Of a stretch of DNA of 50,980 nt, positions 3 through 13,013 are shown in pieces. Made by a program: the position numbers and the translations under genes. Positions within the stretch are counted from its first letter, which is position 1. Every line of letters begins with the position of its first letter. The notes under the pieces are model-generated. The model was not told the origin of the DNA, did no database searches, and worked only from the letters and a program-made list of their open reading frames with translations. The DNA is from Deltaproteobacteria bacterium. Lineage in GTDB: Bacteria; Desulfobacterota; Dissulfuribacteria; Dissulfuribacterales; DYLC01. The DNA is taken from NCBI GenBank assembly GCA_028695735.1, contig JAQVIJ010000001.1, positions 1 to 50,980 on the forward strand, written 5' to 3'.

Positions 3-233
3 GAACGAAGCGTAATCACTAAACATTTACGTAATATCTTTCAGGCTGAAGAACTCGACGAGAAAAGAAATGTGCAAAAAATGCACATTGCTGGCTCGGA
101 CAAGCCCGTTGCATTCTATAGTCTCGACGCCATCATCTCGGTCGGCTACCGCGTAAATTCCAAACGGGGCACGCAGTTTCGCATCTGGGCTACTGAACAA
201 AAGGACAGTCACATTTCTGCTCAACTTTTTTAA
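3..233 (+). pseudogene. RhuM-family protein fragment, cut at both ends
   Basis: The plus strand reads in frame from the window edge to a TAA at 231-233. It gives a peptide with the RhuM core (KHLRNIF...ELDE...FYSLDAIISVGYRVNSKRGTQFRIWAT), the conserved stretch of the virulence-associated RhuM family, often found in accessory islands. The 5' part lies outside the window. After RIWAT the match stops and the frame runs into the leader of the structured repeat (the GGACAGTCACAT motif near 203-214) and ends. I infer that the repeat inserted into, or recombined with, rhuM near position 195 and removed its 3' part. The family call is from memory of the motif. The gene is almost surely non-functional. 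Confidence 0.7.
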
Positions 234-791
234 TTAAATCTCCTGGGGCGGCAGCGGTGAAGCATTTGTTCCATGCGTCGCATAACTGCCCTCCATGGCA
301 GGATGCGCCGCCGGCGCCCTCCTGGCGCCTATTCCACAAACACTCCACCACTGCCGCCCTTCTCGTCCCTGCGGAACTCCATATTCATAACGAGTGCCCT
401 ATCCATTCCTACTGCAATCCCACAAATAACGGATTGACCTGCTGGAATAATAAACCTACCCTTCTGATAATAAAAATCGCTGGCTAAACCGGCACTTCTG
501 CCAATAAAAAACGTGGAATTGTTTTTTTACCCTCTGTTAACCAAAGTTCGAAGGATATGTGGTGGTTTGAAGCGTCGTTTACGATTGAGCGTGGGGTTCA
601 GGAGGGGTGTTAACCAAAGTTCAAAGGGTCTATGTCTTTTTTAAGCGACTTCTGAGGTAAGATGTGGAGGTGGGGAGGGGCGATGAGCAGCCGGTGTTTG
701 TGAAATAGGCGCCACGAGGGCGCCGGCCCCACATTACCGCCATGGAGGGCGGTTATGTGGGGCATGGAACAAATGCCGGCTGCCCTCGCCC
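198..791 (+). mobile_element. Structured interspersed element, copy 1 (full, about 590 bp)
   Basis: A leader (about 198-246: GGACAGTCACATT, then CTTTTTTAATTAAATC) precedes arm A (247-358), a spacer (359-677) and arm B (678-791) in inverted orientation. Each arm folds as an outer stem enclosing two hairpins. Arm A has an outer stem GGCGGCAG...CTGCCGCC, a first hairpin GCGTCGCAT...ATGCGCCGC with loop CTCCAT (one mismatch in this copy), and a second hairpin GGCGCC/GGCGCC. Arm B has the same shape with different stems (for example CCCCACAT/ATGTGGGG). The spacer holds a 74-base-spaced direct repeat GTTAACCAAAGTTC at 536 and 610. No conserved reading frame spans the copies. It fills the gene-free stretch 234-795. 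Confidence 0.8.
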
Positions 792-9374: not shown

Positions 9375-9976
9375 GTCAAATCAGAATCCCCTTCAAAGCC
9401 CTTTTGATTCACAGTCTATTGGCCCGGAAAGAACAGGTGATTCAAGATGTCCTGGCTCTTCTGATGGAACGATATGGGGAAACGGCATTTGAAAGCCCTG
9501 TATTGCCCTTTCATCACACCGATTATTATGAAAAGGAATTCGGCCCGAATCTCAAACGGCTCTTTGTGGGCTTTGCCGAACTGGCGCCCCAGGACATCCT
9601 GGTGCAGGCCAAGCTATTCGCAATGGAACTGGAGAGGCGGTTTTCCTGTAACGGCAAACGCCTGATAAACATCGACCCTGGCATGTTGACCATGGAACGC
9701 CTTGTGCTGGCCACGGCCAAGAATTTTACGCATAGGATATACCTGGGCCAGGGGGTGTTCGCTGACCTGACCCTCATCTTTCAGAAGGGCGGGTTCAGGC
9801 CACTTCCCTGGACATTCCCCGATTATAAATCAGACGAGGCCATGGCCCTGTGGCACGACTGGCGCAATCACTACAAAAAAACCATAGAACAGGGCAAAGT
9901 GCACATCGAAGCCGGAATTCAATGGAGCTCGAGAGGAAACTATGATACGAAGCATGACCACCTTTGCCAGGTATGA
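9371..9976 (+). CDS. DUF4416 family protein
   Basis: A 201-residue cytoplasmic protein of unknown function. The family pattern is seen in FPSVL-like PVLPFHHTDYYEKEFG, then GKRLINIDPGMLTMERLVLATAKNFTHRIYLGQGVFADLTLIF and GFRPLPWTFPDY. I chose GTG 9371 because it overlaps the kinase stop (GTGA), a common coupling, and gives the family's usual N-terminus; an upstream in-frame extension is shadow sequence. The C-terminal tail runs 35 bases into yicC, so the two are translationally coupled. The family is usually found in this same neighbourhood in related genomes, from memory. Confidence 0.8.
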   Translation: MSQIRIPFKALLIHSLLARKEQVIQDVLALLMERYGETAFESPVLPFHHTDYYEKEFGPNLKRLFVGFAELAPQDILVQAKLFAMELERRFSCNGKRLINIDPGMLTMERLVLATAKNFTHRIYLGQGVFADLTLIFQKGGFRPLPWTFPDYKSDEAMALWHDWRNHYKKTIEQGKVHIEAGIQWSSRGNYDTKHDHLCQV

Positions 9977-10823
9977 GGAGGCAGGCCCTGTCTGGTCGTT
10001 CAAGGCAGAGTTGAAGTCCGTCAACACCAAGTTCTGTGAGGTAATCGTTCGCGGCCCCCGATGGCTGAATCCACTGGAGGACAACATTCGGCGTCTGGTG
10101 CAGAAACGCATGGCCCGCGGCCGTCTGGAGTTGACTCTACAGATGGAGCGCGTCCTTCGGGACACGAGCTGTCTAGAACCGGACATGGAACTGGCCCGCG
10201 GATACCTGGAGGCATCGAACCGCATCGCACATTCTTTGGGTCTGAACCCTGTGAAAGACACATCTATACTTCTGACACTGTTCCCCGGGCTCATCACCAC
10301 CAGAGAAAATGGGACTGATACAGACGAACTCTGGGCATTCGTCTCTCAGGCCGTATCCAACCTGCTGGATCAGGCCGAGCGAATGTCGTTGGTGGAGGGC
10401 GAGGCACTGGCAAGGGATATGACCGAGCGTATCGGCCTGTTGAAGACCATGCTGCAAAAGGCGGCTGATCGTGCGCCGGTGAGGCTGGAAGAGGCCAGGG
10501 CCGCAATGCAAAAACGCATCGACACCCTGGCCGGCACAGTGCCTTTGGACGAAACCCGTCTGGCCCAGGAATGCCTTCTGATGATGGACAGAATGGACGT
10601 GAGCGAGGAGATCACCCGGGCTTTCAGCCATATTCAACAGTTTCAGGCATGTCTGAACAGTCATGAAGCCGTGGGACGCAAGCTGGATTTTCTGTGCCAG
10701 GAGCTCTTTCGAGAGGTGAACACCCTGGCCTCCAAGTGTGCTGATGTGGAGATGTCTCACCTAACAGTAGAGATGAAGTGTGAGATAGAAAAGATCCGTG
10801 AACAGGTGCAAAATGTGGTATAG
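9942..10823 (+). CDS. yicC: YicC/YloC-family endoribonuclease
   Basis: A 293-residue protein with the YicC N-terminus MIRSMTTFARYE and ELKSVNTKFCEV, and the C-terminal DUF1732-type segment RKLDFLCQELFREVNTLASKCADVEMSHLTVEMKCEIEKIREQVQNV. Family members are reported to cleave RNA. In related bacteria yicC is commonly followed directly by remA (DUF370) and gmk. Here an AT-rich gene at 10993-11970 separates them. It overlaps the DUF4416 gene by 35 bases. Confidence 0.92.
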   Translation: MIRSMTTFARYEEAGPVWSFKAELKSVNTKFCEVIVRGPRWLNPLEDNIRRLVQKRMARGRLELTLQMERVLRDTSCLEPDMELARGYLEASNRIAHSLGLNPVKDTSILLTLFPGLITTRENGTDTDELWAFVSQAVSNLLDQAERMSLVEGEALARDMTERIGLLKTMLQKAADRAPVRLEEARAAMQKRIDTLAGTVPLDETRLAQECLLMMDRMDVSEEITRAFSHIQQFQACLNSHEAVGRKLDFLCQELFREVNTLASKCADVEMSHLTVEMKCEIEKIREQVQNVV

Positions 10824-10992
10824 TATATAATTTTTATAGGCATTGGCACAACTGGAGGAGCTGCAATAAAATTAAACTGTTGGGCTTTAAACTTATACTT
10901 ATGAATGTTTATCTGGGTGCTGAACTTAGCTTAAGAAAACTTGTTGTCAAACGACAGCATAATTGCAGGATCTTGGTGTGGAGTAAATTCAA

Positions 10993-11970
10993 ATGGCTTA
11001 TTTTTTAGTCTCTGTTTCAAATAGGACTAATTTAGAATTATGTATAAAATTTGGACTTGCAGGTTTTACAAATAGTATAAATGGATTATGGACATATGCA
11101 GAAATCCATGAGGGTGATTTTATTTCGTTTTTATATGGAGCCAAAGTTTTCAACCTCTATAAAGTTGTAAAGAAGGAAGCCATATGGCATGCAGATAAAG
11201 TTGGTCCATGGCCCCCAGTAACTTTTAGAATGTCTGGAAAAACTTACTATTTCCCTTTTCGTCTTTATTTAAAACCACTTCGCGAATTGATTGAACCTAT
11301 GGTTAGAGCGGAATTTGCCTATGTAGCAGAAAATTTACTTTTAAGGGGTGGCTATAGAAAAACCCACTTTCAAGCAGACCAAACTACATTGCAATCAGTT
11401 TCTCAAATGGGGAATCTCTATGATAAACCAATAGAAAGATTTGCAAGCAATAATTATGAAACATTTATTCCACAGGTTACATGGAATAGGACTCTTATGT
11501 CCATACCTGAAGTCTTTCCTTTTCAGGAATTCATTCTTCAGTCTTTAATAAAGCAATGGCTATCTCAGAGTGAGAATTTGCAAACCTTATTTAATTTGAT
11601 TGAGTTAGATGATTTACAAGCAAAAGATTTCGATGTACTTAGCGAAAAGGCTTTACCTGAAGGTCATATAGATATTCTGATCAAGGATGCCTTTCCCACA
11701 GGAGTTTCCAGGAAAATTATTTTAGAAGTTAAATTAAACAAGTGTCAGCCAAAAGATATAAGCCAGTTAGAAGGTTATATGAAGGAGTTAGGAGATGAAT
11801 GCATACGAGGGGTGTTAATAGCCAAAGAATTTTCCAAAAAGGCCCTTTTAGGGTGTAAAGGGAAAAATATAAAATGTTTTATGTATTCTTTCGACGAAAT
11901 TAATTTGTCAAAAATATACTCTATTCCTGAACTTAACCGGCGAATTTGTATTAACCCCATAACATGGTAA
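10993..11970 (+). CDS. EVE/PUA-like domain fused to a PD-(D/E)XK (NucS-like) nuclease
   Basis: A 325-residue protein I do not recognise by name. The N-terminal half (about 1-140: YFLVSVSNRTNLELCIKF...GLWTYAEIHEGDFISFLYGAKVFNLYKV) resembles EVE/PUA-like folds, some of which read modified bases. The C-terminal third (about 210-300) has a nuclease core: Asp227 in GHIDIL, Glu245 and Lys247 in ILEVKLNK, and Gln258...Tyr262. A modification-dependent restriction or repair nuclease is my inference. The gene is strikingly AT-rich compared with its neighbours, and is flanked by AT-rich DNA with no visible integrase. It separates yicC from remA-gmk, so it looks like a single-gene horizontal insertion into a housekeeping operon. 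Confidence 0.6.
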   Translation: MAYFLVSVSNRTNLELCIKFGLAGFTNSINGLWTYAEIHEGDFISFLYGAKVFNLYKVVKKEAIWHADKVGPWPPVTFRMSGKTYYFPFRLYLKPLRELIEPMVRAEFAYVAENLLLRGGYRKTHFQADQTTLQSVSQMGNLYDKPIERFASNNYETFIPQVTWNRTLMSIPEVFPFQEFILQSLIKQWLSQSENLQTLFNLIELDDLQAKDFDVLSEKALPEGHIDILIKDAFPTGVSRKIILEVKLNKCQPKDISQLEGYMKELGDECIRGVLIAKEFSKKALLGCKGKNIKCFMYSFDEINLSKIYSIPELNRRICINPITW

Positions 11971-12073
11971 TGAAGGAATAAGAGTATGGCCACGGTGGGG
12001 TTAAAGGAATGGGTAATACTTTATGGATATGGTGATCCGCAGTGACTGAAAATGAAATAGCAGGATAACAATA

Positions 12074-12382
12074 ATGGCTTCTAAAAGGATACTGAACATA
12101 GGCTTTGGAAATGTAGTGGTGGCGGAACGGATAGTGGCCATCGTAAATCCCGCCTCTTCTCCCATGAAAAGGCTGCGGGAGGAGGCCAAAAACTTAGGTA
12201 AACTCATAGACGCCACGGAGGGCAGAAAGACCCGCTCCATTCTGGTGCTGGACAGCGACCACATCGTGCTTTCCGGCCTGCAGGCCGAGACCATAGCCCA
12301 ACGCCTGACCCAGGAACCTGCCGCCCGACTGGAGGAGGTCATGCAGGGCCGAAGACAGGAGGATACCGGACATGACAAATGA
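12074..12382 (+). CDS. RemA-like (DUF370) regulatory protein
   Basis: A 102-residue protein with the DUF370 signature [73 protein letters not shown]. The Bacillus member RemA is a DNA-binding activator of matrix genes; in Gram-negatives the role is unclear. It lies just before gmk with an 11-base overlap, the arrangement usual for this family. AGGATAA serves as the ribosome site. The 103 bases before it, after the inserted nuclease gene, contain no further gene. Confidence 0.85.
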
Positions 12383-13013
12383 AACACGCATCAGAGGCGA
12401 TTTGTTTGTGATATCAGCGCCTTCCGGAGCAGGCAAAAGCACTGTATGCCGCCGGGTTTTGAAGGAAATGGACGGCATCGCCTTCTCCATCTCACACACG
12501 ACTCGAAGCCCCAGACAGGGCGAGGTAAACGGCGTGGATTATCATTTCGTCTCCAGAAAAAGATTTAAGGAGATGATCAACTCAAATGCCTTCATCGAAT
12601 GGGCGGAGGTACACGGCAATCTGTACGGCACAAGCTATGCAGCCATTGAGAGCCTGCTCGACCAGGGCATGGATGTCATGCTCGATGTGGATGTTCAGGG
12701 GAAACGGAACATCTCCCGCATCTTTCCAAGGGCCGTATCCATCTTCATTCTTCCCCCCTCTATGGCGGAGTTAAAAAAAAGGCTCGAATTCAGGGGCACA
12801 GACGATGAGGCCACCATAGCGCTGCGGCTTCGCAACGCCGTCCTGGAGATGCGGCAGATCAGCAGCTATGACTTTCTCATAATCAACGACGACCTGAATT
12901 CCGCAGTGGAAGACATGAAGGCGGTAATCCGCTCAAGGCGCTGCGCTGCGTCCCGTGTCCTCACAGGGGATTTACCCATCCTGCATGATCTTGAGACAGT
13001 GACAGGCGACTAA
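12372..13013 (+). CDS. gmk: Guanylate kinase
   Basis: Gmk phosphorylates GMP to GDP with ATP. The 213-residue protein has the P-loop [10 protein letters not shown] (residues 15-24), the GMP-binding region [20 protein letters not shown] and the lid/core segment [30 protein letters not shown]. Length and motifs are standard. It overlaps remA by 11 bases, and rlmB starts at the base after its stop codon. Confidence 0.96.

Follow-up and report, generated by a model that had tools for sequence, protein, structure and literature searches.

Enzymes that join a reader of modified bases to a nuclease, or to its motor, have been described from prokaryotes. In YTH-McrB of Thermococcus gammatolerans, an archaeal YTH domain binds 6mA DNA, and Bell et al. 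(2020) mention in one sentence that YTH-like domains are fused to McrB or PD(D/E)XK nucleases (PMC7641849; the words NucS and homing are not present in that paper). A similar pocket recognises 5mC/5hmC in EVE domains, among them that of the EVE-HNH enzyme VcaM4I (PMC7897488). Stand-alone proteins of this fold also exist: the cage of MJECL36 (W25/F79/F90) superimposes on the m6A cage of YTHDC1 (W377/W428/L439), but binding of m6A by MJECL36 was undetectable despite this cage (PMC6112328). A methyl-dependent nuclease has further been proposed to be incompatible with the corresponding methylase in Streptococcus pneumoniae, where a strain has either DpnI, which cuts Gm6ATC, or DpnII together with its methylases (PMC3573125).

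Fusions of YTH with PD(D/E)XK nucleases have thus been known since 2020, and what is new here is a conserved family of this kind and the methylase wreckage beside it, at the locus described below and at others. The open-licence literature yielded no published description of this family and its methylase-wreckage context, and no paper in which 'NucS' occurs together with 'EVE domain'.

The insert between yicC and remA

The window, a stretch of 50,980 nucleotides from a Deltaproteobacteria bacterium (contig JAQVIJ010000001.1), contains an AT-rich insert of 1250 bp (about 1.25 kb) that fills exactly the space between the stop codon of yicC and the ATG of remA and holds a single gene (Table 1). 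The GC content is 34.3% in the 169 bp before this gene, 33.7% in the gene itself and 39.8% in the 103 bp after it, compared with 55.4% in yicC. In all 36 loci of relatives having both yicC and remA (L077-L111 and L113; L076, which gave no yicC match, was left out of the count) the two are neighbours, separated by 13-392 bp in 35 loci and by 947 bp in one. The gap is 75 bp in G001, the sole genome of the same family in this comparison, and the nuclease gene is missing from all 98 other relatives' genomes searched. The gene is an insertion in the yicC-remA gap, private to the source genome within the relatives sampled. The GC values and the gene order of relatives bear out the original prediction of an AT-rich gene inserted at this place, and the comparison with sister genomes found no conservation of the gene at this position in the phylum. 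Unusual composition had also been claimed for both sides of the gene; both flanks are indeed AT-rich, but the upstream one is not random sequence, being a methyltransferase remnant (see below). The other long yicC-remA gap (L100:539-1485, 947 bp) carries, by eye, an apparently unrelated short ORF.

No direct or inverted repeats that would signal a transposon flank the insert, and of RNA elements only one tRNA of the window reaches the Rfam gathering score. A promoter scan of the region gave seven matches where 5.0 were expected, so that a 10/12 match ahead of the gene, at 10843-10872 within the insert, is uninformative. It had further been suggested that a place inside an essential operon would let the gene be retained and expressed. 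We reject this explanation as unsupported: the position is unique to the source genome among the relatives compared, no nuclease relative was seen in a yicC-remA operon, and the other family members adjoin unrelated genes.

Table 1. Features of the insert and its neighbours in window coordinates, followed by the methylase junctions (J1-J7) found beside members of the nuclease family; positions for J1-J5 are residues of the 524-aa methylase.
Feature	Position	Strand	Basis or remark
yicC, intact, upstream neighbour	9942-10823	+	gene order kept in 36 relatives
Insert, yicC stop to remA ATG	10824-12073		AT-rich
Upstream part of insert	10824-10992	+	contains methylase remnant
Methylase remnant	10880-10969		N6_N4_Mtase family
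Nuclease gene, EVE/YTH-fold + NucS-type PD-(D/E)XK, 325 aa	10993-11970	+	ORF; Pfam NucS_C; AlphaFold2
N-terminal EVE/YTH-fold domain, aa 1-147	10993-11433	+	VIA-align
Putative cage position F25	11065-11067	+	mapped to MJECL36
Putative cage position W73	11209-11211	+	mapped to MJECL36
Putative cage position F87	11251-11253	+	mapped to MJECL36
C-terminal NucS-type PD-(D/E)XK domain, aa 178-301	11524-11895	+	VIA-align
Catalytic residue D227	11671-11673	+	
Catalytic residue E245	11725-11727	+	
Catalytic residue K247	11731-11733	+	
Invariant residues Q258, Y262		+	
AT-rich spacer nuclease-remA, 39.8% GC	11971-12073	+	without recognisable gene or flanking repeats
remA (DUF370), intact, downstream neighbour	12074-12382	+	
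gmk, intact	12372-13013	+	
J1 (L015, L027)	~223		methylase cut directly at nuclease start
J2 (L020)	~302		methylase cut, in-frame stop
J2 (window)	266-293		remnant
J3 (L021)	43		methylase cut
J4 (L024)	from 67		methylase directly after nuclease stop
J5 (L118)	66-113		methylase piece ~45 bp before nuclease
J6 (L039)			Dam-family N-terminal fragment, frameshifted, upstream of nuclease
J7 (L036)			headless Dam-family fragment starting at nuclease stop

A two-domain protein and its family

AlphaFold2, with 35 family members as input, predicts a structure with sensor and nuclease domain within one chain (mean pLDDT 93.3, pTM 0.90). According to VIA-align, the N-terminal domain resembles MJECL36 (2p5d; Z = 14.4), PH1033 (1wmm; Z = 13.7) and YTHDC1 (6zda; Z = 12.6) over 127-129 residues, and the C-terminal domain resembles NucS (2vld; Z = 11.8) and EndoMS (5gke; Z = 11.4). 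Ten Foldseek matches were obtained at E <= 0.001, among them the modification-dependent nucleases MspJI and AspBHI, EndoMS, NucS and the m6A reader YTHDC1. Recognition at the sequence level is limited to the nuclease half. Pfam NucS_C matches the window protein with 26.6 bits (cut-off 24), the NucS equivalog model reaches 37.6 bits against a cut-off of 216 and covers residues 212-285 only, and PADLOC models match the window protein weakly and in its nuclease half only (best 0.0012), the best match among family members being 7.4e-06, to PDC-S26. No EVE or YTH model is among the 17 Pfam families matched by any of the 38 family members at E <= 1, the hhalign match of the N-domain to the MJECL36 group is weak (23%, 18 columns), and the N-terminal NucS domain is absent from the window protein.

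Four residues named in the original prediction as a PD-(D/E)XK core (Asp227, Glu245, Lys247 and Gln258) proved correct: they align with D160, E174, K176 and Q187 of Pyrococcus abyssi NucS (2vld; numbers counted on the sequence alignment) and, like E218 and Y262, are invariant in all 37 members reaching them. All 38 members have F25, W73 and F87, as well as W33 and Y85. Since the family scan relied on the patterns G[KR]TYYFPF and [AP]EFAYVAE, conservation at residues 82-89 and 106-113, including F87 and Y85, is in part a product of this selection; the patterns do not cover F25, W33, W73 or the catalytic residues. Comparison of the MJECL36 sequence with the DSSP assignment of the model places F25 on the strand matching the W25 strand of MJECL36, and pattern and DSSP together equate F87 (YFPFR) with F90 (KFPYR), while the mapping of W73 to F79 is less sure. 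W33 was rejected as a cage residue, since DSSP assigns it to a helix and F25 instead occupies the W25-equivalent strand. Structure prediction and conservation hence uphold both halves that had been proposed, the possible modified-base reader as an EVE/YTH-like fold with conserved putative cage positions and the nuclease core as a NucS-like domain.

A first scan of the named genomes with the single window protein gave no match. Solid matches were found in four of 395 genomes of the phylum, namely the source genome, G217 (67% identical, with an N-terminal frameshift), G177 (51%) and G227 (63%, cut by the contig end), and the alignment of these four copies (A1) as query recovered 38 loci in named genomes. 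The 38 members are 45-68% identical to the window protein and scattered over bacteria and archaea, the hosts being Dehalococcoidia, other Chloroflexota, thermophilic Bacillota, Acidobacteriota, Armatimonadota, Planctomycetota, Aminicenantes and many archaea. Several rows were set aside: L004 (same contig as L052) and L002 (same as L016) were dropped, as was L052 from the tree; L025, a near-copy of L017, was left out of alignment A3 and of the 42 flanks analysed below, and L029 out of A3; L027 and L050, with broken frames, were left out of the alignments and L071 (wrong frame) out of alignment A5.

Bacteria and archaea are intermixed in the family tree, where Chloroflexota require seven changes and the window protein is sister to a Syntrophorhabdaceae copy (support 97/86). 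The nuclease is present in one of 400 Chloroflexota genomes, in 8/393 genomes of the class of G429 and in three of 50 genomes of the phylum of G435, one of these being a fragment. The scatter of the family is horizontal. Carriage by phages, plasmids or viruses is rejected, since searches of those sequences gave no whole-protein match: there were no relatives in phages and plasmids at E <= 1e-5 (only weak matches to the C-terminal half under relaxed settings) and none in viral contigs. Near-identical nuclease genes with their downstream ORFs also occur in two bins named Archaeoglobaceae and Brockarchaeota (L028 and L029), which reflects either a very recent transfer or a binning error.

Broken nuclease copies are found at L016, L027, L050, L122 and L124. 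In close pairs, mostly without an adjacent methylase piece, dN/dS is well below 1 (e.g. 0.019/0.235, 0.013/0.118 and 0.173/0.951), whereas pairs with such a piece (L015/L018, L021/L023, window/L016 and window/L020) show greater divergence and a high or saturated dS. Purifying selection in the close pairs is strong and keeps the nuclease functional as a family.

Small ORFs follow several nuclease copies and, except for one weak match, have none in Pfam. A protein of 80-85 aa is encoded right after the nuclease, with a short gene overlap, at five loci of Archaeoglobales, Aminicenantes and Acidobacteriota (L039:3663-3905, L040:6945-7190, L043:6945-7190, L044:1486-1743 and L046:6948-7193); it has no Pfam match in the two copies tested and is a possible partner or inhibitor. 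A different protein of 85-101 aa lies downstream in two phyla (L020:4024-4281, L023:1925-2191 and L027:3002-3307), again without a Pfam match in the one copy tested (L023). In both Caldicoprobacter species (L017:5165-5989, and L025 of C. oshimai DSM 21659) a 274-aa ORF ends 12 bp before the nuclease; it shows a weak zinc-ribbon match and, by eye, an EVK-type nuclease-like motif.

Methylase remnants at the nuclease borders

The upstream part of the insert contains the remnant of a DNA amino-methyltransferase gene of the N6_N4_Mtase family, which corresponds to residues 266-293 of the intact 524-aa relative M62 (tblastn against intact methylases: 43.1 bits, E = 6.4e-7, 30 aligned columns with 70% identity). 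By comparison, 1000 dinucleotide shuffles reached at most 22.3 bits, and 495 other pieces of the window at most 29.3. As a candidate cognate methylase the window has this 30-residue remnant only, though another methylase may act in trans. The genomes of L027 and L023 encode intact relatives of 524 and 534 aa (PF01555) at other places.

Methylase pieces lie against the nuclease at nine of 42 loci, in seven junctions (J1-J7, Table 1), and eight of the nine are clearly broken. The uncertain case is L024, where the methylase keeps all its catalytic motifs and has no ATG, GTG or TTG start. Seven loci carry pieces of the N6_N4 family (the window, L015, L020, L021, L024, L027 and L118, the last found after the methylase pattern had been noticed), and two carry pieces of the Dam family (L036 and L039; TIGR00571, 1.4e-13 and 2.6e-22, respectively). 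With methylase queries at E <= 1e-4, matches occurred in 11 of the 42 nuclease flanks (197 kb) and in none of 52 control loci (166 kb). The two extra flanks have amino-methylases of other subfamilies, one of them intact and divergent to the nuclease (L048) and the other intact-looking, CcrM-like and 256 bp upstream (L035). What recurs beside the nuclease is a broken DNA methylase gene and not a housekeeping operon.

In Fusobacterium, a gene for the DpnII endonuclease (PF04556, 4.7e-109) has as its neighbour a methylase that is 52-56% identical to the N6_N4 methylase, and at L059:2299-4729 DpnII, an Mrr-type nuclease gene and an amino-methylase lie in a row.

Across genomes, this N6_N4 family is missing altogether from 29 of 35 that have the nuclease. 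G435 (the genome of L027) has an intact methylase elsewhere and a broken nuclease, while in G432 (L023) the nuclease and a methylase of this family are both intact, on separate contigs within one bin, which counts against incompatibility. Strong D12/Dam matches (E <= 1e-25) were found in none of 39 nuclease-positive and in 11 of 39 negative genomes (Fisher, 0.0004); the negatives came from the head of earlier listings, chosen before the result, and the positives include archaea and small bins. Within the class of G429 the same threshold gave 0/8 positives and 122/385 negatives, a borderline difference (hypergeometric, 0.049), and E <= 1e-10 gave 2/8 and 155/385, the two positives (G429 and G434) having intact, weakly Dam-like genes. 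We regard the Dam depletion in nuclease-positive genomes as suggestive only, genome size and completeness being confounders in both comparisons and archaea also in that of 39 against 39.

The source genome itself has three other intact amino-methylases, and therefore the nuclease cannot cut every m6A or m4C but needs specificity for context or base. In the same genome a Dam-family gene beside a terminase-like ORF, in a prophage-like setting (G000 C2:364876-365550, L131), has one in-frame stop, a single case that fits the idea of incompatibility.

Proposed function and comparison with known systems

We consider that the window protein is probably a stand-alone modification-dependent restriction nuclease, with N6-methyladenine as its likely mark, which persists where the matching methylase has been lost. 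The original prediction of such an enzyme therefore stands as the best reading, without the part on retention by an essential operon. The EVE/YTH-fold half would flip out and cage the modified base, most likely N6-methyladenine, after which the NucS-type half would cleave the DNA, and the cell would be protected against incoming DNA from methylating hosts. Such a nuclease should be tolerated only by hosts whose own DNA is free of that mark; it would persist in genomes that had their matching methylase destroyed, and would hence often lie against the wreckage of that methylase. The window copy may have come to the yicC-remA gap together with its methylase scrap, and the arrival of the nuclease and the loss of the methylase may have occurred in one step. 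Since two unrelated families of adenine-type methylases are broken at nuclease borders, the common factor seems to be a mark and not one partner gene, which suggests N6-methyladenine. The DpnII neighbour of the Fusobacterium methylase hints at GATC as the target context.

It is unlikely that the enzyme reads another modification (5mC/5hmC, m4C or a hypermodified phage base) and that the wreckage merely reflects shared defence islands. The N6_N4 methylase family also produces m4C, and intact amino-methylases occur near the nuclease at L035 and L048. A similar pocket reads 5mC/5hmC in VcaM4I (PMC7897488). The product of the Dam family, however, is N6-methyladenine according to the NCBI family description, and clustering in islands leaves the like truncation at the nuclease border in unrelated genomes unexplained. 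The methylase piece directly upstream in the same direction at six loci, as in M-R operons, and the occurrence of that methylase family with DpnII would also suit a classical type II R-M pair in which the restriction enzyme, cutting unmethylated DNA, has lost its methylase. This has a small chance of being right: the nuclease is under purifying selection beside dead methylases, which can give it no self-protection, a situation lethal for a nuclease of that type. Moreover, an intact methylase of the N6_N4 or Dam families stands beside the nuclease at none of the loci (L024 being uncertain), the methylase is missing from the 29 genomes mentioned above, and we know of no EVE/YTH fold that reads unmodified target sites.

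Flush junctions at several positions of one methylase family (J1-J5), tight gene borders and wide horizontal scatter recall a selfish, homing-like nuclease gene that spreads by inserting into methylase genes. We find this very improbable, because methylase sequence lies on just one side of the nuclease and never resumes where both flanks are readable, the window insert has no flanking repeats, most copies lie outside methylase genes, the affected methylases belong to two unrelated families, and no homing-nuclease family is among the Pfam matches. The least credible reading is a housekeeping DNA-repair nuclease with a damage-reading PUA-like domain, as the closeness of the catalytic domain to NucS/EndoMS could indicate. 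Repair genes are usually stable in place, whereas this gene is very patchy (in the Chloroflexota, the class of G429 and the phylum alike), differs in its genomic place from genome to genome and lacks the N-terminal NucS domain.

Beyond the modification-dependent nuclease that we favour, a more specific proposal is possible, although we lean against it at present: the family may be a second, independently built 'DpnI', in which a YTH-type m6A reader and a NucS-type nuclease cut adenine-methylated (perhaps Gm6ATC) DNA and which spreads through bacteria and archaea at the expense of resident methylase genes of the Dam/DpnII type, the truncated methylases flush with its ends being fossils of a repeated swap. 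If this is true, the family would offer a compact single-chain methyladenine-dependent restriction enzyme, useful as a tool, with a reader fold as in eukaryotic m6A readers; it would bear on the origin of YTH domains, and the mutual exclusion of methyl-dependent nucleases and methylases would be visible as repeated gene fossils across phyla.

Among the known systems, YTH-McrB and the YTH-PD(D/E)XK fusions likewise join a prokaryotic YTH/EVE-like reader to a nuclease or its motor, but in contrast to YTH-McrB the window enzyme is compact and single-chain, has a NucS-type nuclease and does without a GTPase. VcaM4I shares the arrangement of an N-terminal EVE sensor that flips the modified base and a C-terminal nuclease, and differs in its HNH nuclease, its 5mC/5hmC mark and its cage residues P24/W82/Y130 (PMC7897488). 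With the mismatch endonucleases NucS/EndoMS the window protein has the C-terminal catalytic domain and its residues in common, while an EVE/YTH fold replaces the N-terminal NucS domain. The closest fold of the N-domain is that of the stand-alone EVE/YTH-like proteins MJECL36 and PH1033 (UPF0310), whose W25/F79/F90 would correspond to F25/W73/F87; these have no nuclease, and for MJECL36 the reported m6A binding was below detection (PMC6112328). DpnI/DpnII of Streptococcus pneumoniae follows the same logic of a methyl-dependent nuclease proposed to be incompatible with a methylase (PMC3573125). DpnI, however, consists of a catalytic domain and a winged helix (PMC4117772) where the window protein has an EVE/YTH fold and a NucS-type domain, and, unlike the DpnI/DpnII exchange, the exchange proposed here would have left truncated methylase genes behind and involves many phyla.
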